Shown: positions 1,294-46,658 of the stretch, piece after piece
Position numbering within the stretch: position 1 is the stretch's first letter
Layout of the letters: every line of letters starts with the position of its first letter
NCBI GenBank assembly: GCA_020723105.1
Contig: DYJL01000011.1
Coordinates: forward strand, 1 to 64,000
Length of the DNA stretch: 64,000 nucleotides
Direction: 5' to 3'
Origin: Nitrospira japonica
Lineage (GTDB): Bacteria; Nitrospirota; Thermodesulfovibrionia; UBA6902
Position numbers and translations under genes: made by a program
The notes under the pieces: model-generated
The model's input: only the letters and a program-made list of their open reading frames with translations
What the model was told of the DNA's origin: nothing
The model's database searches: none

Positions 1294-1375
1294 TAACCAA
1301 TAGTATTTAATATATGAAACTCCTCTTGAAAGTTCTTTCTTGAGGCCATCTTTTAATACAAAAGGATTTACAACT

Positions 1376-3589
1376 ATGAGAAAGACTTCGCTCTGTTTTC
1401 ACATTTGTTTTCTTTCGATGATTTTATTGTGCATAATCTCTGGTTCCTCAGCATGGGCCCAACAAATAGAGTTAGTCCCTGTAACGCCTTTCTCTCCTCA
1501 ACAGGCAGTTGATCAGATACCTGCAAAAGCAAAGCCTGTAACACAACCAAATGAAATCCTGCAAAAACTTGAACAAGCCAGGCAACCGCAGGAGCTTGTG
1601 CAGCCTGTCACTAAACCGAAGCCTTCAGCGGAAACAGTGTCGAGATTTGAACAATTTATTGCCGGAGAAACTTTGCCGGCTATTTCAACTAATATAAAGC
1701 AATTCGGTTATGACCTTTTCAAAGATGCTTCCCCTGCCTTTGTACCTTCTGCAAATGTTCCGGTGGGGCCTGATTATGTTGTCGGGCCTGGCGATGAAAT
1801 AAAAATTACAGTCTGGGGGAAAATAGAAGGCGCATGGCATGTGACCATTGACAGGGATGGCAATATCAGCATTCCAAAGGTCGGTATTCTCGGAGTCACC
1901 GGTTTAACCTTTAACCAATTAAAAGGGCTTCTTCACAAGGAACTTTCAAGATACTATACCGGTTTTGAAATGAATGTCAGCATGGGCGCTTTAAGAACGA
2001 TGAGGGTTTATGTTGTAGGCAATGCCCAGAATCCCGGCGCATATACTGTATCAGCCCTTTCAACCATTGTGAATGCCCTCCTGCAGTCGGGCGGGCCGAG
2101 CAAGACCGGCACCATGAGGGACATCCAGTTAAAAAGAAATGGCCAGACGGTCGGGCATTTTGATCTGTACGATTTTTTATTAAAGGGTGACAAATCAAAG
2201 GATGCAAGGCTGTTACCGGAAGATGTAATATTCATCCCTTCAGTAGGGCCGCTTGCAGGCATTGCCGGCAATGTTAAAAACCCCGCAATCTATGAACTGA
2301 GCGGAGAAACAAAACTCCTGGATCTGATTCATATGGCGGGAGGCCTTATGAGCGTTGCTTTTAAAGGAAGGCTGCAGGTAGAGCGGATAGCTGATCATCA
2401 GTTCAGGACTCTTTTTGAAGGGGATCTCATTAATCTTGAAAAGAACACGGAGAAGAATTTTATCCTCAGGGATGGAGATCTGGTAAAGGTATTTGCTGTA
2501 ATGGATACAAAAAATACGATAACGATTGCAGGCGCTGTGGCAAATGCAGGTGATTATGGAATTACACCCGGGGTAACAAAGATAAAAGATGTCATCTCTC
2601 TGTCCGGAGGATTGCTGTATTTCACCTCTAATGAAGCAGAATTAACGAGGGTAAAGGTTACACCTTCAGGGCCGCTTACAGAACAGCGAATGATTGATAT
2701 TGTCAAGGCCGTGGCAGAAGACCCGCAGCATAATGTCACCCTTGAAATAAACGACTATCTGCTGGTCCGGGCAGTCCCGGACTGGAAGCTTTACAGAACC
2801 GTATCCATACAGGGAGAAGTTAAATTCCCTGGTACTTATACCGTCAGGAAAAACGAAAGGTTGTCCTCCCTCATTGAAAGGGCTGGAGGCTATTCCGACA
2901 GGGCTTACATAAGAGGAGCGGCATTTATCAGAAACAGTGTAAGAGAACTTCAGCAGAAGAGCCTTGATGAAATGGCTGAAAGGCTCGAAAGAGACCTGCT
3001 TGCTGCGGGGTCCTTAGAGGTAGCCACTGCATTATCTATCGAAGAAATTACTGCCAAAAAAGTGGAGCTGGAGCAAAAAAGGAAATTTGTTGAAGCCATG
3101 AAACAGTTAAAGGCCACAGGCAGAATGTCAATAAAGCTTGCTCACCTGAGGCTGTTGAAAAACAGTGAATACGATATTGAACTTGAGGACGGTGACAGTT
3201 TATTTATTCCAATGAGAAACAGTGTCGTGAATGTTGCAGGAGCGGTAATGTCCCGAGGCAGCTTTGTTTATTCTGAGAAGTTTGACTATAACGACTATGT
3301 AACTATGGCAGGCGGGTACACGCGCTATGCAGATGATGACAACGTATATGTCTTAAAAGTTGACGGCACTGCACTGAAACTGTCAGACGGATTCTTTAGC
3401 TGGAACATGAAAAAATCCAGATGGGAAGTCACCGGGTTCGGTGAGGATATTAAACAGATTGAACCTGGCGATTCCATCATCATCCCTGAAAAGCTCGAGC
3501 GCATTGCATGGATAAGGGAAATTAATAATTTAACACAGATACTTTATCAGATAGCAGTAACTGCAGGCGTAACCATTGCGTTGTTTTAG
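1376..3589 (+). CDS. Wza-like polysaccharide export protein with SLBB domains
   Basis: Predicted outer-membrane/periplasmic polysaccharide exporter. An N-terminal signal peptide (MRKTSLCFH, hydrophobic core, AWA-QQ cleavage site) is followed by a proline-rich linker. A poly-export domain begins near residue 130 (VVGPGDEIKITVWG) and is followed by several SLBB-type repeats, seen as recurring 'G.V..PG.Y' units (VVGNAQNPGAY, IAGNVKNPAIY, IAGAVANAGDY, IQGEVKFPGTY, VAGAVMSRGSF). A charged, likely coiled segment (about residues 525-600) separates the last two. I chose ATG 1376, preceded by AAAGGA, over an in-frame TTG at 1340 because it puts the signal peptide at the N-terminus. At 737 aa it is longer than E. 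coli Wza (about 380 aa), as is common for multi-SLBB relatives. It probably works with the neighbouring YjbH protein. Confidence 0.85.
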   Translation: MRKTSLCFHICFLSMILLCIISGSSAWAQQIELVPVTPFSPQQAVDQIPAKAKPVTQPNEILQKLEQARQPQELVQPVTKPKPSAETVSRFEQFIAGETLPAISTNIKQFGYDLFKDASPAFVPSANVPVGPDYVVGPGDEIKITVWGKIEGAWHVTIDRDGNISIPKVGILGVTGLTFNQLKGLLHKELSRYYTGFEMNVSMGALRTMRVYVVGNAQNPGAYTVSALSTIVNALLQSGGPSKTGTMRDIQLKRNGQTVGHFDLYDFLLKGDKSKDARLLPEDVIFIPSVGPLAGIAGNVKNPAIYELSGETKLLDLIHMAGGLMSVAFKGRLQVERIADHQFRTLFEGDLINLEKNTEKNFILRDGDLVKVFAVMDTKNTITIAGAVANAGDYGITPGVTKIKDVISLSGGLLYFTSNEAELTRVKVTPSGPLTEQRMIDIVKAVAEDPQHNVTLEINDYLLVRAVPDWKLYRTVSIQGEVKFPGTYTVRKNERLSSLIERAGGYSDRAYIRGAAFIRNSVRELQQKSLDEMAERLERDLLAAGSLEVATALSIEEITAKKVELEQKRKFVEAMKQLKATGRMSIKLAHLRLLKNSEYDIELEDGDSLFIPMRNSVVNVAGAVMSRGSFVYSEKFDYNDYVTMAGGYTRYADDDNVYVLKVDGTALKLSDGFFSWNMKKSRWEVTGFGEDIKQIEPGDSIIIPEKLERIAWIREINNLTQILYQIAVTAGVTIALF

Positions 3590-3595
3590 GCAGCT

Positions 3596-3637
3596 ATGAG
3601 TTATGAGTTAAGAGTCATGAGTTATGAATTATGAGTT
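3596..3637 (+). repeat. Heptad repeat, left arm (ATGAGTT type, six units)
   Basis: Six consecutive 7-bp units (ATGAGTT, ATGAGTT, AAGAGTC, ATGAGTT, ATGAATT, ATGAGTT). The last unit supplies the ATG start codon of the next gene. The inverted partner arm is at 3755-3787. Confidence 0.9.
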
Positions 3638-5769
3638 GTGGATTTTTCTTTCTCTTTAATTCAAAGCTCTTCGCTTACAACCTGAAATTATTGCCCCTTG
3701 TTGTAGCATTGTTTCTGTTTCTTCTTTTCATTCCTCATGAAGTTTTTTCTGAACCTCTTAACTCAAACCTCTTAACTCATAACTCTGTGGATGAGCCCTT
3801 CTCCTATCCTGCAAACTGGGGCGGCACAGGCCTTATGGAAATCCCCTCAGCAAGGATAATGAGAGAGGACAGCTACCGGATTGGTTTCTCTCAGATAATG
3901 CCTTACAGGTATTATTACGGAGCCATAACCCCCTTAAAAGGCCTTGAAATTGACGGAAGGATAACAGAGGTATCAGGCGTTCAAGGATTAGCAGATCCTG
4001 CATATGGCAATTACAAAGACAAGGCATTGGACTTTAAATATCAGTTCCTTTCAGAAGGCAAATACCTTCCTGCTCTTGCAATAGGCATCATGGATCCTCA
4101 TGGTACACGGGTCTATCCATCACAGTATATAGTGGCAAGCAAGCAGATATATCCTTTTGATTTTACAATTGGGTTTGGCAATGGCAGATTCGGCAAGAAG
4201 CCTCTCATTTCAAGCACTGAAAATGCAAGAGTTGAGATCATAACTGATACAGGTGACTGGATAAAAGATTCGCAGTTTTTCTGGGGCCTGCAGTTTGCAC
4301 CCTCAGAAAAATATGCCCTCATGTTTGAACACAGCCCGATTAAATTTCAGGAGCAGACTTTTGATCCGGCACAGAAAAAATATTTCCGTGAGCCTGTCTC
4401 TTCAGAATATAACTTTGGTTTGCGATACAAACCGACAAAGTGGTCTGAAATCGGTCTTTCCTATCAGAGAGGCAATCGAGTGGGCATTAATTTATCCACT
4501 GTATTTGATATAGGAAAACCCCTCATCCCAATCTACGATCCGGCCTACAGGGAAAAATCTTCTGATACGCTCAATCCGGTACAAAAGAGGATTGTATCAG
4601 CACTCTGCAACCTGGGCTTCAGCAATATAGGTGTGGTCCTTGATGACAATCAGTTATGGATAGAAGCGCAAAATGATAAATACTTTTATGCTACAAAAGC
4701 CGTTGGCATCATTCTCAAAGTACTTGTAACTATCAATCCTGAAAATATAGACAAGATTCACGTCATCCTCAAAGAGAATGAAATACCCCAGGTTGAATTT
4801 GTTGCTGCAAGGAGGGATTTGCTTGATTTATATGCAGAGAAAATGGCCCTCGGTGAATTTCTTTCTTTATCGGAATTCCGTACAACTCCTTCCCAAATAC
4901 ATGATATTACCATTGAGCAGAAAAAGCTGTTTCGTTACGGTGTAAGGCCTTCTCTTGAAACATTTCTGAATGACCCTTCCGGATTTTTCAGATACCGTTT
5001 TGGAGTTGACGGTTGGGTCAGTTATCATCCATGGGAAGGCGGGACCCTGGTTGCAGGGCTTGCAACCTTCCCTTTGAATAATATTACTACTACAAACGAA
5101 CCTCTTTCGATACCTGTAAGGACAGATATTGTCGAATATAAGAAGAAGAATCTCGTTCTGAACCGGCTTATGATAGACCAGTTGAAAAGACTGACTCCCA
5201 CACTTTACGCAAAGTTTTCCGCCGGACTTCTTGAGACCCAGTATGCGGGACTTGATGCGGAGGCAGCAATGCCTGTTTTTAACGGCAGAATATTTTTGGG
5301 GTTAAGTGGAAGCGCAGTGAAAAAAAGAGACCCCGGGAATCCTTCCAGATTAATAGAGAACGGCGTTAAGGATATTTATACCACTGCATTTTTTAACACC
5401 CGCCTCAATATGCCTGAGACAGAGATGGCAATAGATATAAAAGCCGGAAGGTTTCTGGCAGGCGACAATGGCGTACGTTTTACTGTTTCAAAATTTATTA
5501 ACGGTGTAACTGTCTGGGCCTGGTATAGTTCCACAGATACCTCGGTATTTAAGGATGATTTTAACAGGGGATATCATGACAAGGGAATCGGTGTTTCAAT
5601 CCCTATCAGATTGTTTAAAGGCACGGACTCAAGGACTTTTTATAATTACTCATTGTCGGCATGGACCAGGGACACGGCTCAGGATATAGAGCACTTCAGC
5701 ACGCTGTTTAATTTTATGGGCAGAAACACTAAAATATTTCTTGACAAAGACGGTGAAAAGATGTATTAA
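3631..5769 (+). CDS. YjbH-domain exopolysaccharide outer-membrane protein
   Basis: 712-aa exported protein resembling the YjbH/WbfB family, whose members are predicted outer-membrane beta-barrel proteins encoded in exopolysaccharide loci. It has an N-terminal hydrophobic signal (LKLLPLVVALFLFLLF). Its mature start contains the family's 'NWGGTGLMEIPSAR' segment and 'YYGAITPLKGLEIDGRIT'. Later come an alternating-pattern beta-rich region and a terminal aromatic strand region. The position directly after the Wza-like gene supports a polysaccharide role. Oddly, the only plausible start codon lies in a heptad repeat and has no recognisable Shine-Dalgarno, and the residues just after the signal (SNLLTHNS) are encoded by the opposite repeat arm. 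The family call is moderately firm; the mechanism is not known. Confidence 0.75.
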   Translation: MSCGFFFLFNSKLFAYNLKLLPLVVALFLFLLFIPHEVFSEPLNSNLLTHNSVDEPFSYPANWGGTGLMEIPSARIMREDSYRIGFSQIMPYRYYYGAITPLKGLEIDGRITEVSGVQGLADPAYGNYKDKALDFKYQFLSEGKYLPALAIGIMDPHGTRVYPSQYIVASKQIYPFDFTIGFGNGRFGKKPLISSTENARVEIITDTGDWIKDSQFFWGLQFAPSEKYALMFEHSPIKFQEQTFDPAQKKYFREPVSSEYNFGLRYKPTKWSEIGLSYQRGNRVGINLSTVFDIGKPLIPIYDPAYREKSSDTLNPVQKRIVSALCNLGFSNIGVVLDDNQLWIEAQNDKYFYATKAVGIILKVLVTINPENIDKIHVILKENEIPQVEFVAARRDLLDLYAEKMALGEFLSLSEFRTTPSQIHDITIEQKKLFRYGVRPSLETFLNDPSGFFRYRFGVDGWVSYHPWEGGTLVAGLATFPLNNITTTNEPLSIPVRTDIVEYKKKNLVLNRLMIDQLKRLTPTLYAKFSAGLLETQYAGLDAEAAMPVFNGRIFLGLSGSAVKKRDPGNPSRLIENGVKDIYTTAFFNTRLNMPETEMAIDIKAGRFLAGDNGVRFTVSKFINGVTVWAWYSSTDTSVFKDDFNRGYHDKGIGVSIPIRLFKGTDSRTFYNYSLSAWTRDTAQDIEHFSTLFNFMGRNTKIFLDKDGEKMY
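3755..3787 (+). repeat. Heptad repeat, right (inverted) arm inside the YjbH gene
   Basis: Units CTTAACT, CTTAACT, CATAACT are the reverse complement of the 3596-3637 arm, about 120 bp away. The two arms flank the signal-peptide codons. The arm is translated in frame. Confidence 0.85.
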
Positions 5770-5812
5770 TTTAAAAGCGTTGGAAAATCCTCATTAATCG
5801 AAAGGAGTGGAA

Positions 5813-6271
5813 ATGAAAAGAATTTTAGCAGTTTTTTTGGTGTTTTCGTTTTTAATGTTCAATCTTGGCTTAGTGTCTTTACATGCTGCAGATCCGGTCA
5901 CACAAACAATAGCATCTGTAGCTAAGGCACAGGAAATCGCAGCAGCAGCAGGTGGAGCCTATGTTGAAGGCGCAGCAGCCCCTGCCCTTACAGGCACTCA
6001 GGTAGCCTTGCCTGTAATAGACGGAGCCACAGGCAGCGTCCTCGGGCATGTCGTAGCAGAGCAAGCCAGTCTTGTTTCAGCTCTTAATACAGCCGGCTAT
6101 ACATCAGTAGCTTCTGCAGTAGCTGCTACTCAGGCTGGGACAACAGCCGGACTCGCTGTTGGAGCAGGAATTACAGCCGGAACTGTAACAGTCGGAGCCG
6201 CAGCAGTAGCCGGTGCAGCAGCGCTTATAGTCGCTTCCGGAGGTGGTACCACATCAGGACATCATCATTAA
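5813..6271 (+). CDS. Small exported Ala/Gly-rich protein of unknown function
   Basis: About 152 aa. ATG 5813 is favoured over an in-frame GTG at 5807 because AAAGGAG lies at 5801-5807, six bases upstream. It has a clear signal peptide (KRILAVFLVFSFLMF...LHA-AD). The mature part is very rich in Ala, Gly, Val and Thr, with a long hydrophobic Ala/Gly/Val stretch (about residues 105-140), then a GGGTTSG linker and a C-terminal HHH. The composition suggests a membrane-inserting, glycine-zipper-like or surface-associated polypeptide. I recognise no family. It follows the YjbH gene by 43 bp and is closed by a terminator, so it may be the last gene of the polysaccharide operon. Confidence 0.65.
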   Translation: MKRILAVFLVFSFLMFNLGLVSLHAADPVTQTIASVAKAQEIAAAAGGAYVEGAAAPALTGTQVALPVIDGATGSVLGHVVAEQASLVSALNTAGYTSVASAVAATQAGTTAGLAVGAGITAGTVTVGAAAVAGAAALIVASGGGTTSGHHH

Positions 6272-8451: not shown

Positions 8452-8637
8452 CTACATTTCAGTTACAGTAATAGCGCTGTTGGGACATGATTCAACACAC
8501 GTCAGGCAATAAGCACAATCTGAGGCCTGATGAGGATCAGACTTTCCATCAGCTATCTGGAAAACTTCTGAAGGGCACAGATTGACACATTCTTCACAAC
8601 CATCACACTTCTCATTATCAACGGTAACAATATACAT
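8452..8637 (-). CDS. 2[4Fe-4S] ferredoxin
   Basis: 61-aa bacterial-type ferredoxin with two complete cluster motifs: C11-x2-C14-x2-C17-x3-C21-P and C42-x2-C45-x2-C48-x3-C52-P. It is a small soluble low-potential electron carrier. It starts at ATG with AGGAGG nearby (CAGGAGGTGAATTG on the minus strand). The gene is monocistronic and converges on the TusA cluster across a shared terminator. Physical proximity to sulfur-relay genes hints that it may serve a sulfur redox enzyme, but ferredoxins of this type serve many partners. Confidence 0.93.
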   Translation of the reverse strand: MYIVTVDNEKCDGCEECVNLCPSEVFQIADGKSDPHQASDCAYCLTCVESCPNSAITVTEM

Positions 8638-25788: not shown

Positions 25789-26325
25789 TTATTTCATTAA
25801 CTCCGCACGTAGTAGACGAAGCTGACCTTTTAAACTGCTGTCATAGATGGTGCTGCCAACCTTTACAATAAACCCGCCGAGAAGAGACGGATCCACCTGG
25901 CTCTCGACATCAACTTCCTTCCGCGTCATTGCCTTGAGAGTAATTCTAAGTCTTTCAGTATAGTTCTTATCCAGCGGCACAGAAGATATCACAACAGCAG
26001 TGGCCTTCTTCTGTCTTTCGTTATATGCATTAATTGAAGCAATAATTGTTTCTTTAATTGCAGCGAGGTGCCCCTGTACAATGATAAGTTTCAAAAACTT
26101 TTCTGTATGAGAAGACAGCTTGAGGACTGGCAACAGCGCACCCAGTGCCCCCTCTTTTTCACCCTCTGAGAAAATCTGGCCTGCAAACAGCAGTTTCAGC
26201 TTCCTGTTTGTATCAATGAGTTGTGAAAAGGCCTTAAGTTCCTCTATCACAACCGGTATCTTTGAGATCTCGACGCTGCCAAGAAGCGCCTTGCTATATT
26301 TTTTTGCGATCTGATTCTTGTTCAA
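25789..26325 (-). CDS. atpH: ATP synthase F1 subunit delta (OSCP)
   Basis: 178 aa. N-terminal helical domain ('QIAKKYSKALLG'), middle 'LIIVQGHLAAIKETIIASINAYNERQKKATAVVISSVPL', and the C-terminal 'QVDPSLLGGFIVKVGSTIYDSSLKGQLRLL' signature of the delta/OSCP family. It links F1 to the peripheral stalk. Its start overlaps the atpF stop by four bases. Confidence 0.97.
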   Translation of the reverse strand: MNKNQIAKKYSKALLGSVEISKIPVVIEELKAFSQLIDTNRKLKLLFAGQIFSEGEKEGALGALLPVLKLSSHTEKFLKLIIVQGHLAAIKETIIASINAYNERQKKATAVVISSVPLDKNYTERLRITLKAMTRKEVDVESQVDPSLLGGFIVKVGSTIYDSSLKGQLRLLRAELMK

Positions 26326-26909
26326 TTTTTTGCCTCGAGTCTTTTTATATAATCATCTATGAGTGCTTCCTGATCTTTCTGCCCGAGTTTCTCCTTTAGC
26401 TGCTTTTCTGCAAGTTCCAGCGCCATCATGGTGGCCTCGGATTTAATATTCTCTTTTGCCTTTTGCAATTCAAATTCTATATTTGACTTTGCCTGTTCCA
26501 GTATCTTTGCTTTTAATCTTTCCCCTTCTGCAATAATTGCTTCCTTTTCTTTCTCACCGGCTTTTCTTGCGGATTCGATTATCTGCCCTATTTCACTATC
26601 TGTGTTCTTAAGACGTTCTCTGACTTCATTGAGCGTCTTTTGTGCAAGCTCTTTTGCCTCGGTGGCTTCTTTAAGTGATTTCTCAATCAGCGCTGTACGG
26701 TTTTTGAAATACTCTGCAAAGGGTTTACGCGCAAAGAAAACAAGAATGAATACGAGAACCGCAAAATTTACAACCGGCCACAACCAGTCTTTCCATGTAA
26801 AGTGTACCTCTCCGTGACCTCCGCCTTCAGCGGCAAAGACGGCAGCAGTGAATAGTGAATAGTGAATAGTGAATAGTAAACAGACTGAAAAATTTTGAAT
26901 TGTTTTCAT
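26322..26909 (-). CDS. atpF: ATP synthase F0 subunit b, with repeat-encoded N-terminal signal
   Basis: 195 aa. The body is a typical b subunit: one membrane helix (WLWPVVNFAVLVFILVFFARKPF, about residues 42-64) then a long charged coiled coil. Unusually, it has an extra N-terminal signal-like segment (MKTIQNFSVCLLF...AAVFA-AEGGGHG) whose middle (TIHYSLFT) is encoded by four GTGAATA heptads in antisense. Some b subunits in related lineages do have a cleavable leader; here part of the leader is repeat DNA. The start codon overlaps the b' stop. Confidence 0.93.
   Translation of the reverse strand: MKTIQNFSVCLLFTIHYSLFTAAVFAAEGGGHGEVHFTWKDWLWPVVNFAVLVFILVFFARKPFAEYFKNRTALIEKSLKEATEAKELAQKTLNEVRERLKNTDSEIGQIIESARKAGEKEKEAIIAEGERLKAKILEQAKSNIEFELQKAKENIKSEATMMALELAEKQLKEKLGQKDQEALIDDYIKRLEAKN
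26848..26881. repeat. Heptad repeat (GTGAATA x4) inside atpF
   Basis: Four perfect GTGAATA units (26848-26875) and a partial one. On the coding strand they read as part of the hydrophobic leader of the b subunit. Confidence 0.92.
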
Positions 26910-41293: not shown

Positions 41294-42760
41294 TCATTTT
41301 TCATTTTGAGTCTTCAGGAACTCCTCTCCTGTTTTCCATACATCACCGGCGCCGAGAGTCAACAGGGTATCACCTTCTCTCAGTTCCTGCTTAAGGCGAG
41401 TTAATATCTCTGTACGATCTTTAACGTATTCAACGTCCTTGCCGGTGTTTTTTATCCCTTTCAGTAAATTTTCCGAATTGATTCCCTCCAGCGGCCTTTC
41501 TCCTGCAGGATAGATGTCCATCAGAATTACTTTATCAGCATCTGTGAAGGCATAACAAAATTCATTAAATAAATCGCGCGTCCTTGTAAATCTGTGCGGT
41601 TGAAAAAGGACCACAAGCCTGCCTCCGGCAGTCTGAAGTTTAGAGTTATGAGTTAGGAGTTTAGATTTGTTTTTCTTGACTCTTAACTCTTGACTCTTAA
41701 CTCTTGACTCTTTGCCCTGAATCATGGCTTCCTTCGCCGCTTTCAACGTCGCCATAATCTCTGCAGGATGATGTCCGTAATCATCAATTATTTTAATGCC
41801 TGAAACCATCCCCTTTATCTCAAAACGCCTCTGTACTCCGCTGAAATGCTTCAAGGCCTTTTGAATATCTTCCATATTCATCTCAAGTTCATTGGCAACT
41901 GCAATAGCCGCAAGACAGTTGCATACATTGTGCGCGCCAAAAAGCGGAACCTCGAAATGGCCCAGAGACTTGCCGTTTAAAACGGCCTCAAAAGTTGTAC
42001 GGGAACCATCTGTCTTAATATCTTTTGCAATAAGATCCAGGTGCTCGCTTAATCCGTACGTTATAAATCTCCTCTGAACTTTTGGTAAAAGCTCCTTGAT
42101 GTGTTCATTGTCGCCATACAGAATAGAAAGCCCGTAAAACGGAATTTTATTTATAAATAAAAGAAAGGCGTTTTTTATTTCATCAACAGTTTTGAAAAAA
42201 TCCATATGTTCCCGGTCTATGTTTGTAACAACTGCAATCGTTGGCGAAAGTTTCAAAAAGGAGCCATCGCTTTCGTCTGCCTCAGCGACAAGGAATTCTC
42301 CCTGCCCGAGCCTGGCATTGCTTCCAATGCCTTTCAACTTACCTCCTATTACTACGGTCGGATCAAAGGGGCCTTCGCCAAGAACACTTGCTATCAATGA
42401 AGTTGTCGTTGTCTTTCCATGTGCACCTGCCACCAGCACCGCATATTTCAGTCTTGCAATCTCTGCCAGCATTTCAGCCCTCGGTATGACAGGGACTGAC
42501 AATTTGCGCGCGGCCTCAACTTCCGGATTATAGGAAGACACCGCTGAAGATATAACAACTACGTCCGCATCCTTAACATTCTCCGGTTTATGCCCGATGG
42601 TTATGACTATCCCCTGCCCCCTTAATCGGGCAGTAGTTTCAGATTCTTTCAGGTCCGAGCCTGAGATTTTATAGCCCAGGTTGTTTAGAACCTCGGCAAT
42701 GCCGCTCATGCCAACTCCGCCTATACCTACGAAGTGAATTTTCTCAAATCGTTTATACAT
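41294..42760 (-). CDS. murC: UDP-N-acetylmuramate--L-alanine ligase with repeat-derived insertion
   Basis: 488 aa. N-terminal 'HFVGIGGVGMSGIAEVL', central P-loop 'GAHGKTTTTSLIA', 'AVVTNIDREHMDFF' and C-terminal 'FQPHRFTRTRDLF' are diagnostic. Between 'KAAKEAMIQG' and 'GGRLVVLFQPHR' there are about 30 additional residues rich in K, S, L (KESRVKSQELRVKKNKSKLL...), encoded by paired inverted heptads (41637-41713). The insertion lies between central and C-terminal domains, a plausible tolerant loop. Confidence 0.96.
   Translation of the reverse strand: MYKRFEKIHFVGIGGVGMSGIAEVLNNLGYKISGSDLKESETTARLRGQGIVITIGHKPENVKDADVVVISSAVSSYNPEVEAARKLSVPVIPRAEMLAEIARLKYAVLVAGAHGKTTTTSLIASVLGEGPFDPTVVIGGKLKGIGSNARLGQGEFLVAEADESDGSFLKLSPTIAVVTNIDREHMDFFKTVDEIKNAFLLFINKIPFYGLSILYGDNEHIKELLPKVQRRFITYGLSEHLDLIAKDIKTDGSRTTFEAVLNGKSLGHFEVPLFGAHNVCNCLAAIAVANELEMNMEDIQKALKHFSGVQRRFEIKGMVSGIKIIDDYGHHPAEIMATLKAAKEAMIQGKESRVKSQELRVKKNKSKLLTHNSKLQTAGGRLVVLFQPHRFTRTRDLFNEFCYAFTDADKVILMDIYPAGERPLEGINSENLLKGIKNTGKDVEYVKDRTEILTRLKQELREGDTLLTLGAGDVWKTGEEFLKTQNEK
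41637..41713. repeat. Paired inverted heptad repeat inside murC
   Basis: Left arm GTTTAGAGTTATGAGTTAGG (units like AGAGTTA/TGAGTTA) and right arm of five GACTCTT/AACTCTT units (41678-41713), reverse complementary, about 13 bp apart. It is translated in frame on the minus strand. Confidence 0.92.
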
Positions 42761-43935: not shown

Positions 43936-45090
43936 TCAATTAACATACGTTCTGTTCTCCGCCATCCTGCCTTTATTATTCCTTGATATATTTATCAATA
44001 TGCCGACTGCAGCCAGATTGATAAGGAGTGATGAACCTCCGTAGCTTATAAAAGGCAGCGGCAGCCCTTTTGTAGGCATGAGTCCTGTTGTTACTGCAAA
44101 GTTGATAATTACCTGAACTCCTATCATCATCGTTAATCCAAGTGTCAGGAAATAGCTGAATGCGTCATTCGTTCTTCCGGCAACCTTAATGCCTTTTATA
44201 CAAAAGTAAAAAAACAGGACCAGTACAAACACCGCACCGATCAGCCCCAGCTCTTCTCCTATCAGTGAAAAAATGAAATCTGTGTGAACCTCCGGAAGGA
44301 AATACAGCTTCTGTTTGCTGCCGCCAAGCCCCAGCCCTGTTAATCCTCCATTGCCAAAGGCAATAAAAGACTGTATAAGCTGAAAGCCGCTGCCGCGGGA
44401 GTCTTTCCATGGATCTGTAAAAGACATGATCCTTTTCATCCTGTACGAAGACGATATAACCAGCAGATAAATGGCCGGTAAAGAAGCCAGAAACATGATG
44501 CCAATATAACGCAATCTTACACCGCCAAGAAGCAAAAGCCCCATTGTAAGAATCCCCAGACTCATTACTGCTCCGAAGTCCGGCTGCAGTATGATAATGC
44601 CCTGAAATAAAACCATGATTAAGATCGGGACCACCATGCCGTAACGGAGGTCCTTCATCCTGTGAAGGTTCTTATCCATATAATCAGCAAGAAATATCAC
44701 CATCACCAGCTTTACGAATTCTGAAGGCTGAAACGTAGTAGGCCAGAGCCTGAGCCAGCGCCTGGCCCCTTTGGCAGCAATTCCAAGACCCGGCACAAAT
44801 ATCAATAACAGCAGTATCAGAGAAATCAATAACATTACATGGACTAACGATATCTGAAATGAGGCGATATGAAACAAGGGCCTTCTCAGGCTCTTATAAT
44901 CCACCCTTGATAATATGACCATAGCTGCAACTCCAACAAAAACAGTAAAGACATGGCTCAGCAAGTAATGAAAACTATTGTTATACTTCTTCATAGACAT
45001 CAGAACTGTAGAACTATACACCATAAGTATGCCAATGCATACGAGGAATGCAACTGAAATAATTAAACCTTTCGTATCGTTAGTGTTCAT
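43936..45090 (-). CDS. ftsW: Lipid II-polymerising glycosyltransferase FtsW (SEDS family)
   Basis: 384 aa with about ten membrane segments. 'WLRLWPTTFQPSEFVKLVMVIFLADYM' and 'QPDFGAVMSLGILTMGLLLLGG' and 'FIFSLIGEELGLIGAV', 'TTGLMPTKGLPLPFISYGGSSLL' are the SEDS signatures, including the catalytic Asp region. It sits between murD and murG, and its start overlaps the murD stop by four bases. Confidence 0.97.
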   Translation of the reverse strand: MNTNDTKGLIISVAFLVCIGILMVYSSTVLMSMKKYNNSFHYLLSHVFTVFVGVAAMVILSRVDYKSLRRPLFHIASFQISLVHVMLLISLILLLLIFVPGLGIAAKGARRWLRLWPTTFQPSEFVKLVMVIFLADYMDKNLHRMKDLRYGMVVPILIMVLFQGIIILQPDFGAVMSLGILTMGLLLLGGVRLRYIGIMFLASLPAIYLLVISSSYRMKRIMSFTDPWKDSRGSGFQLIQSFIAFGNGGLTGLGLGGSKQKLYFLPEVHTDFIFSLIGEELGLIGAVFVLVLFFYFCIKGIKVAGRTNDAFSYFLTLGLTMMIGVQVIINFAVTTGLMPTKGLPLPFISYGGSSLLINLAAVGILINISRNNKGRMAENRTYVN

Positions 45091-46619
45091 AGTTTTGAGT
45101 TTTGAATTAATTTTACTGCTTCTTTAAATTTTCTCCCTCTGTCTTCAAAATCCTGAAACATATCAAAGCTCGCACAGCCGGGTGACAACATTACCACATC
45201 GCCCTCAGAAGCCTTTGACAGGGATAATTCAACGGCTGATACGATGCTGTCAGTCATGAATATTTCTGTCACATCTCCCAGTGCCTTTACAATTTTATCC
45301 TTGGCCTTGCCAAGAAGGACCAGAGCTTTAACTTTTTGCCGGACCAAATCCTTGAGAACAGAGAAATCGCTCCCTTTATCCAGTCCGCCCATAATTAATA
45401 CCACATTATTGAAACCTTCCAGAGATTTTGCAACAGCGCCAACATTTGTACCCTTTGAGTCATTGATGAATTTGACTCCCCTGATCTCGCTGACAAACTC
45501 CAGCCTGTGTTCAAGCCCGGGAAATTCTTCAAGCACCTTCCTGACAGCATCAAATGAACACCCTGCAAGCAAGGCAATCAATGAAGCAGCCATTGCGTTC
45601 TCGATATTGTGCACGCCCTGAATTTTTATCTCATTCTGAGATATAAGTGGGAAGTGAGAAGTGGGAAGTGAGAGATGAGATAAATTACAATAAATTATTT
45701 CATCTTTCAAATAGATTCCCTCTACTTCTCTCCTGCGGCTGAAATAAAAGATATCAGGCTTTTCACTTCTAACTTCTAACTTCTCACTTCTCACTTCCAT
45801 TACCAAGGGGTCATCTGCATTGAGAACCAGGAAATCCCCGGAGGCCTGGTTTTCAAAAATCCTCGCTTTAGCATCAACATATTCCTGTATGTTCTCATAC
45901 CGGTCCAGGTGATCTGGTGTAATATTCAGAAGGGCCGCAATCCTGGGCCTGAATTCTTTTATTGTTTCAAGCTGAAAACTTGAGATCTCTGTGACAATGT
46001 AATCAGGCAAGGAGTGAGGGGTGATGCGTGACGGGTCTTTTTCTTTACTAATCCCTAATCCCTGGTCACTAATCCCTGCTTTTAATATTTCTTCCGTCAA
46101 AGCGATACCGATATTGCCGCCAAGTAAAGTATTAAATCCTCCCTCTGTCAGCATCAGATCCACAAGTGTCGTTGTTGTCGATTTGCCATTGGTACCTGTG
46201 ATGCCTATAAAAGAGGGAGTAGGGGGTAGGGGGTAGGGGGTTAGTGAACTGATATTAGCTTTGTCTTTTTTTATTGATCCCTGACCCCTAATCCCTAATC
46301 CCTGTATTATCTGGTATGCAAGCTCAAGTTCGCCGATCACAGGGATGCCTTTTATCTTCGCACGTTCAAGAGGAGGAATATTGAGCGGCACCCCGGGGCT
46401 TATCACAATCAAATCTGCTGTATCAAAAATTTCCTGCGGATTCCCATCCGTTATTACTTTTACAGACGGTAATAGTTTTTTAATATTAGCTTCAAGCATG
46501 TTGCTTGGTTTACTATCCGTAATTATCACCTTCGCCCCTAATTCAGACAGGAGATTTGCCGAGCCTGTTCCGCTTCTTGCAAGCCCTACAACGACAATGT
46601 TCTTATCTCTGAATGTCAT
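45087..46619 (-). CDS. murD: UDP-N-acetylmuramoyl-L-alanine--D-glutamate ligase with three repeat-derived insertions
   Basis: About 510 aa against a usual 440-460. N-terminal 'NIVVVGLARSGTGSANLL', P-loop 'GITGTNGKSTTTTLVDLML', 'EISSFQLETIKEFRPRIAALLNITPDHLDRYENI' and C-terminal 'LSPGCASFDMFQDFEDRGRKFKEAV' are intact. Three segments are extra: before the P-loop (IRGQGSIKKDKANISSLTPY), before 'DYIVTEISSF' (SDQGLGISKEKDPSRITPHS), and after 'DPLVMEV' (RSEKLEVRSEKPDIFYF to SHLSLPTSHFPLISQ). Each coincides with paired inverted heptads. ATG 46619 is preferred over ATG 46643, since MurD proteins begin close to the Rossmann loop. Confidence 0.97.
   Translation of the reverse strand: MTFRDKNIVVVGLARSGTGSANLLSELGAKVIITDSKPSNMLEANIKKLLPSVKVITDGNPQEIFDTADLIVISPGVPLNIPPLERAKIKGIPVIGELELAYQIIQGLGIRGQGSIKKDKANISSLTPYPLPPTPSFIGITGTNGKSTTTTLVDLMLTEGGFNTLLGGNIGIALTEEILKAGISDQGLGISKEKDPSRITPHSLPDYIVTEISSFQLETIKEFRPRIAALLNITPDHLDRYENIQEYVDAKARIFENQASGDFLVLNADDPLVMEVRSEKLEVRSEKPDIFYFSRRREVEGIYLKDEIIYCNLSHLSLPTSHFPLISQNEIKIQGVHNIENAMAASLIALLAGCSFDAVRKVLEEFPGLEHRLEFVSEIRGVKFINDSKGTNVGAVAKSLEGFNNVVLIMGGLDKGSDFSVLKDLVRQKVKALVLLGKAKDKIVKALGDVTEIFMTDSIVSAVELSLSKASEGDVVMLSPGCASFDMFQDFEDRGRKFKEAVKLIQNSKL
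45645..45799. repeat. Paired inverted heptad repeat, third insertion in murD
   Basis: Left arm of AAGTGGG/AAGTGAG units (45645-45677) and right arm of ACTTCTA/ACTTCTC units (45763-45799), reverse complementary, separated by about 85 bp that are also translated. Confidence 0.93.
46011..46079. repeat. Paired inverted heptad repeat, second insertion in murD
   Basis: Left arm GGAGTGAGGGGTGATGCGTG and right arm CTAATCCCTAATCCCTGGTC, ACTAATCCC. In frame on the minus strand. Confidence 0.85.
46213..46304. repeat. Paired inverted heptad repeat, first insertion in murD
   Basis: Left arm with three GGGGTAG-type units (46213-46245), spacer of about 35 bp, right arm CCCTGACCCCTAATCCCTAA then TCCCTG (46278-46304). 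In frame, just before the P-loop codons. Confidence 0.92.
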
Positions 46620-46658
46620 TTTCTTTTCTTCCACGAGTATCATTATATAATTAGTTCA

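Follow-up and report, generated by a model that had tools for sequence, protein, structure and literature searches.

Introduction

Heptanucleotide repeats are over-represented in some bacteria, and to our knowledge little is known about the use to which they are put. Two families of short repeats described so far resemble the sequences reported here. In marine Beggiatoaceae, direct repeats of TAACTGA end at the starts of genes that have no recognizable ribosome-binding site (MacGregor 2015, PMC4679880). Heptamers of the GGGAATC type occur in Xanthomonas and Nostoc, with 70–75 convergent inverted pairs per Xanthomonas genome (Rehm 2015, PMC4692102). Long 7-nt arrays with proven variation among isolates are represented by neuO (PMC13001214) and hmw1A (PMC8262952); neuO carries 3–53 heptanucleotide repeats and yields a full-length product only if their number is divisible by three (PMC13001214). 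Two further phenomena are relevant to repeats that come in complementary pairs. Rickettsia palindromic elements, which reside in frame within protein genes unrelated to one another, form families of about 150 bp, each of which encodes a conserved peptide (for review, see PMC10969869), and template switching, as described for RNA genes, creates reverse-complement copies of nearby sequence that give rise to hairpin stems (PMC8794818).

Here we analyse a stretch of 64,000 nt of a Nitrospira japonica assembly (GCA_020723105.1, contig DYJL01000011.1; referred to as the window), in which heptanucleotide units surround the start of a yjbH gene. YjbH has been described as a double-barrel outer-membrane protein that occurs near Wza-class export proteins (PMC9603273). 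We describe the heptad arrays, their period, pairing and polarity, their spread through the genome and their turnover at the same sites in related genes, and we weigh the explanations that have been or can be offered for them.

Results

Organization of the yjbH start region

The window belongs to a genome of 3.13 Mb in 94 contigs. Its yjbH gene lies downstream of a Wza-like export gene (Table 1), and the encoded protein is a member of the YjbH family of outer-membrane exopolysaccharide proteins, matching the PF06082 profile in full length (positions 4–655 of 658; 472 bits, with a cut-off of 24). The MAGs that carry the nearest yjbH genes are mostly labelled Thermodesulfovibrionia or Nitrospirae. 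Directly 3' of yjbH, at positions 5807–6271, there is a small alanine-rich ORF of secretory appearance without Pfam match, and a sequence resembling it likewise adjoins yjbH in another genome (G001).

Table 1. Features of the window discussed in this study.
Feature	Position	Strand	Basis
Wza-like outer-membrane polysaccharide export gene	1340..3589 (stop 3587-3589)	+	Poly_export and SLBB; Pfam PF02563, PF10531, PF22461; ORF
Left heptad arm, purine-richer, six ATGAGTT-type units, the last of which is the yjbH start codon	3596..3637	+	Repeat analysis
12-codon reading frame (MSYELRVMSYEL, then stop) opened by the first left unit; its TGA overlaps the yjbH ATG (ATGA)	3596..3634	+	Sequence
Left-arm core of 17 nt, reverse-complementary without mismatch to 3769-3785	3598..3614	+	Sequence match
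yjbH, 712 aa	3631..5769	+	Pfam PF06082 (E = 4.2e-141); orthologues
Right heptad arm, pyrimidine-richer, (AACCTCT TAACTCA)x2 TAACTCT, encoding PLNSNLLTHNS	3752..3786	+	Repeat analysis
17-nt core of right arm	3769..3785	+	Sequence match
ATP-synthase b-like protein with signal-like N-terminal extension of CTATTCA repeats at 26843-26884	26322-26909	-	Domain match and repeats
MurC with in-frame heptad stretch GKESRVKSQELRVKKNKSKLLTHNSKLQ	41294-42760	-	Mur ligase family match
MurD with three heptad-rich stretches	45087-46643	-	Mur ligase family match

The gap of 41 nt between wza and yjbH is occupied by 7-nt units that start at positions 3596, 3603, 3610, 3617, 3624 and 3631. This left array is imperfect because its third (AAGAGTC) and fifth (ATGAATT) units are variants. 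An in-frame TGA is located two codons 5' of the yjbH ATG, and position 3631 is therefore the earliest possible start of the gene. No 4-mer of AGGAGGT was present within the 30 nt upstream of this ATG. Since the TGA of the short reading frame opened by the first unit overlaps the start codon, coupling of yjbH to translation further upstream would be possible. An Rfam search of positions 3300–4100 gave a single chance match far under its cut-off, and a scan of positions 3300–4000 for promoters and terminators found neither.

Two perfect copies of a 14-nt repeat make up positions 3752–3779 of the right arm, and the peptide that this arm encodes sits between the signal peptide and a conserved DEPF motif. 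From comparison with orthologues, by which it was placed without a predictor, the signal peptide probably comprises approximately residues 1–40, with cleavage at HEVFS/E. The two arms are 87% complementary across 30 nt (3598–3627 and 3756–3785). A first-pass annotation of the window had reported that the yjbH ATG opens the sixth ATGAGTT-type unit, that the gene has no Shine-Dalgarno sequence and that the complementary arm encodes the residues immediately following the signal peptide; our analysis agrees with it on all three points, ORF and unit both starting at position 3631.

Heptad arrays and inverted pairs in the genome

Strong arrays in the window mostly have a period of seven, well beyond chance expectation: six were found at lag 7, as compared with three at lag 14, one at lag 12 and none at any remaining lag between 3 and 15. 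A sample of 716,719 nt from the same genome contained 69 arrays at lag 7, 33 at lag 14 and 0–6 at each of the other lags from 4 to 24, and none was present in order-2 Markov copies of this sample. When the sample was 1,116,011 nt, the corresponding numbers were 96 at lag 7, 42 at lag 14 and 0–9 at the other lags from 4 to 20. From the 96 arrays in this 36% of the genome we estimate a genome total of a few hundred. The sampled stretches came largely from contigs that match the ATGAGTT pattern, and array densities may therefore be overestimated, which leaves the comparison of periods untouched. Five relatives, covered by 20–100 kb each and compared at a slightly looser threshold, have 0–10 arrays per 100 kb, versus 13.7 in the own genome. 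One stretch of 20 kb (L090; G000:C94:60001-80000) holds 19 strong heptad arrays, many times the sample average. As a mover of arrays, a RAYT-type transposase was considered and set aside; Y1_Tnp (PF01797) has four matches in the genome (G000:C94:110554, C83:203, C69:32028, C24:1400), two of them with an internal TGA, which might be connected with the palindromic repeats.

Arrays tend to have inverted rather than direct partners. A partner matching at least 17/21 within 350 nt was found in inverted orientation for 24 of the 96 arrays and in direct orientation for three, as compared with 3 and 1, respectively, of 192 random places. The sample contains 189 inverted repeats of 18 nt, of which 42 are built of heptads. 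The 5' arm of these heptad hairpins is purine-rich in 35 cases and pyrimidine-rich in four, whereas the purine lean of 136 non-heptad inverted repeats is weaker (79 to 39). Loops of the heptad hairpins range from 6 to 154 nt. The hairpin at yjbH is part of a widespread GAGTYA/TAACTC sequence family: the 17-nt arm core has 10 exact sites in the genome, both yjbH arms counted, and 84 matches at up to two mismatches, while its reversed control had no genome match at up to two mismatches.

Such dispersal of identical arm cores, together with their in-frame presence within conserved genes, might point to a mobile palindromic element, similar to those of Rickettsia, that inserted at yjbH and elsewhere. 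We consider this unlikely. On inspection, the loops of the 14 listed GAGTYA-type hairpins (17–154 nt) have no visible similarity, and these hairpins therefore do not look like copies of one element; moreover, many different heptamers are involved, and 72 of the 96 arrays are without an inverted partner at 17/21 or better.

Coding sequences and gene starts

Heptads are also found in frame in MurC and MurD. When the respective loops were aligned with 29 relatives each, the relatives had other heptad-looking peptides there, or none. Like the arms at yjbH, complementary arms in murD (45645–45673 and 45759–45798) bracket native sequence. The encoded peptides depend on the polarity of the array: arrays read in the purine sense specify hydrophilic peptides (mean hydropathy -1.22; n = 43), and those read in the pyrimidine sense more hydrophobic ones (mean hydropathy +0.62; n = 31).

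Within the first 225 nt, heptad arrays are present in 10 of 142 secretory-type ORFs and in 15 of 763 others (p = 0.003), secretory status being assigned by a home-made rule that was applied to longest-ORF gene calls and set after examples had been seen. In a smaller sample the ratio was 6 of 87 to 13 of 493 (p = 0.05). Hydrophobic arrays are confined to the first 60 codons (8/22 versus 0/61), and one of these eight, located ahead of the apparent true start of its gene (L097), is probably a gene-call error. Heptads build the core of the signal or leader sequence in an ApbE lipoprotein (L087), in a methylated pilin-like leader (L096) and in an efflux protein of the outer membrane (L031), as well as the N-terminus of the ATP-synthase b subunit in the window (26843–26884). 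Nine further ORFs have heptad arrays that abut the start, one of them with carbamoyltransferase domains (L081); the absence of a Shine-Dalgarno sequence refers to yjbH. In L096, at positions 8603–8632, the start codon again lies inside ATGAGTT units. Genes that we take to be murF-, dnaJ- and accC-like are among the ORFs with start-abutting arrays.

The signal region in yjbH orthologues

Twenty-seven yjbH orthologues with readable N-termini, that of the window included, were compared; the counts leave out L111, whose signal region reads N, loci without N-terminus and duplicate copies of one genome. The signal region, defined as the 139 nt up to DEPF, is a hotspot for heptad arrays. Arrays at lag 7 (at least 16/21) occur there in 8 of the 27 orthologues, whereas 346 windows of equal size from the mature part contain none. 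At lags 5, 6 and 8–11 the signal region has arrays in only 0–2 of the 27, that is, at lag 8 in two and at lag 9 in one (L128, L125, L124). The heptad units differ from lineage to lineage. The signal region of the window itself scores 14 at lag 7, with its left arm located further upstream. The 8-nt repeat of L128 (21/21) and the 9-nt repeat of L124 precede DEPF, and both MAGs are labelled deltaproteobacterial. Two other yjbH matches appear disrupted, that of G033 (L016/L018) being split into two overlapping pieces and that of G021 (L012) having one internal TAA; each may be a pseudogene, an assembly error or a switched-off copy.

In the best-scoring relative (L002; 68–69% identity) the left array is present but 14 nt shorter, and the right arm region has 7 codons (21 nt) fewer. 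Unit numbers therefore change over species time, on the right in a frame-neutral step. The best inverted repeat of L002 (12/16) is at chance level, and no hairpin brackets its start. Among the 27 orthologues, inverted repeats stand clear of shuffled sequences only in the window (16/16) and in L124 (15/16); that of L125 (14/16) is located elsewhere in the leader. Apart from the window, complementary arms around the yjbH start are seen in two lineages, L124 and L016 (13/16). The right arm of the window is kept in no orthologue examined. A conserved regulatory hairpin was rejected as a general feature of yjbH, as it is absent from L002 and from nearly all of the 26 other orthologues.

Predicted folding and changes in unit number

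Folding predictions put the cost of opening the start region (-15 to +15) at 17.6 kcal/mol when the right arm is present, at 8.1 kcal/mol when the transcript ends before this arm, and at 9.2 +/- 1.1 kcal/mol when the arm is shuffled; the predicted cost for a further 15 starts of the window is 3.1–11.8 kcal/mol. With 23.8 expected base pairs between the arms and a z value of -3.9 for the region, the arms are predicted to pair and to bury the yjbH initiation region. In this respect the folding is in line with the proposal of the first-pass annotation that the two arms bracket the codons of the signal peptide and could pair with each other and hide the start, whereas the orthologues do not conserve the bracketing hairpin. 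The same predictions would suit a regulatory RNA hairpin whose pairing hides the start and tunes YjbH to upstream translation, the number of units setting its strength. This has a low probability in our view, because the hairpin is missing from L002 and most orthologues, because none of the other 42 heptad hairpins in the set has so long a loop (154 nt, measured between the 18-nt arms that match best), and because the same hairpins are found within coding regions far from any start.

When the number of left units was changed by -2 to +2, an in-frame ATG remained at the same place each time. The left arm is unable to shift the frame because every new last unit brings such an ATG with it, and frameshift switching via this arm was rejected for all unit numbers tested. 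If there is a switch, it would have to be the right arm, because a stop at codon 46 results when this arm loses one heptad or two (7 or 14 nt); with 21 nt removed, the frame again resembles that of L002. An on/off effect through slippage in the right arm would be possible. Neither arm is a long uninterrupted array, the left having six units with two variants and the right a 2 x 14-nt repeat. Since the same arrays and hairpins occur genome-wide, including in murC and murD, nothing marks yjbH as a dedicated exopolysaccharide switch. A phase-variable contingency locus, in which heptad slippage turns yjbH on and off with the right arm as the switch, has a precedent in the AAGACTC repeats of neuO of E. 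coli K1 (PMC13001214) and might draw on the differences of 14 nt (left) and 21 nt (right) between the arms of the window and L002, but appears unlikely with only two perfect 14-nt copies in a right arm that no orthologue shares, a left arm whose changes retain the in-frame ATG, and the same arrays in housekeeping genes. The copy-number phase switch of an exopolysaccharide that had been suggested for this locus thus has partial support.

Discussion

The start region of yjbH has probably been shaped by a lineage-wide mutational process that generates heptads and has repeatedly rebuilt segments tolerant of them, in this case the start and signal region of the gene. Judging from the anatomy of the arrays, they would lengthen by slippage, and inverted copies would arise nearby, probably via template switching during replication. 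Selection would then purge the copies except in tolerant places such as intergenic gaps, surface loops of proteins and signal peptides. At yjbH, we propose that the left arm came to occupy the gap behind wza, so that a start codon provided by the repeat has replaced an ancestral ribosome-binding site, and that the right arm extended the segment following the signal peptide by 21 nt relative to L002, three heptads being the smallest frame-neutral number. With an ATG in most units the start would have remained functional, and with just three units added so would the reading frame. Translation most likely begins at position 3631 through coupling to translation further upstream; the predicted pairing of the arms may reduce it, as a by-product rather than as a conserved means of regulation.

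Several points speak against this reading. The strong sequestration predicted for yjbH could be selected, the complementary arms around the start in L124 and L016 might hint at a function, and an unseen transposase could instead have moved the arms, given the four Y1_Tnp matches in the genome. Taken together, the recurring overwriting of the yjbH start region nevertheless looks less like a dedicated on/off switch than like a habit of mutation.

Beyond a heptad-generating mutational process, it is possible, and we put it forward tentatively, that heptad palindromes whose 5' arm is rich in purines and whose 3' arm is rich in pyrimidines serve as ready-made secretion starts and that the lineage keeps re-making signal peptides from repeat DNA. 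Whichever of the three frames is used, a perfect 7-nt array encodes one and the same cyclic peptide of 7 residues. Purine codons would furnish a basic hydrophilic stretch along with a start-site-like sequence, pyrimidine codons the hydrophobic core, and such starts would be usable on either strand because the element is palindromic. If this is true, yjbH in various relatives would provide successive examples of how a signal peptide is re-made.

In the genome studied here heptads enter coding sequence at large scale and in complementary pairs that are mostly of one polarity, and one signal peptide as well as particular surface loops of essential enzymes have been rewritten by them time and again. 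In open-licence papers we found no description of signal peptides made of heptad arrays, in Nitrospirota or elsewhere. Related species of this lineage thus form a natural system for following how protein segments, and signal peptides in particular, are born from repeat DNA. The finding also calls for caution, in that heptad repeats close to a start should not be read as phase-variation switches.

How do the arrays at yjbH compare with the systems described previously? Like the TAACTGA repeats of Beggiatoaceae, the left array abuts a start codon that has no ribosome-binding site. The unit is another one, however (ATGAGTT/TAACTCA at yjbH), and while the account of Beggiatoaceae concerns one heptamer with one inverted case (PMC4679880), there are many heptamers and frequent complementary pairs here, and the arrays often lie in coding regions and in signal peptides. 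With the Xanthomonas and Nostoc repeats they share the heptameric period and the inverted pairs; the latter repeats, as described, have one G-rich unit that is discussed as a G-quadruplex former, whereas the units here vary and are translated as part of coding sequences. Parallels to neuO and hmw1A are that 7-nt repeats lie in the leader or at the 5' end of the coding region and, for neuO, preservation of the frame by multiples of three units, yet the arrays at yjbH are short and degenerate as compared with those long arrays. In-frame palindromic repeats in conserved genes, such as those in the loops of murC and murD (aligned with 29 relatives each), recall the Rickettsia palindromic elements, from which they differ in that just the heptad arms recur and, by inspection, the 14 listed loops vary in length and sequence. 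The origin of hairpins by template switching is transferred from RNA genes to heptad arrays by analogy. On the basis of these comparisons, which extend to the cited descriptions, the arrays at yjbH would be filed with the heptanucleotide repeat families, though they appear to be identical to none of the systems compared.
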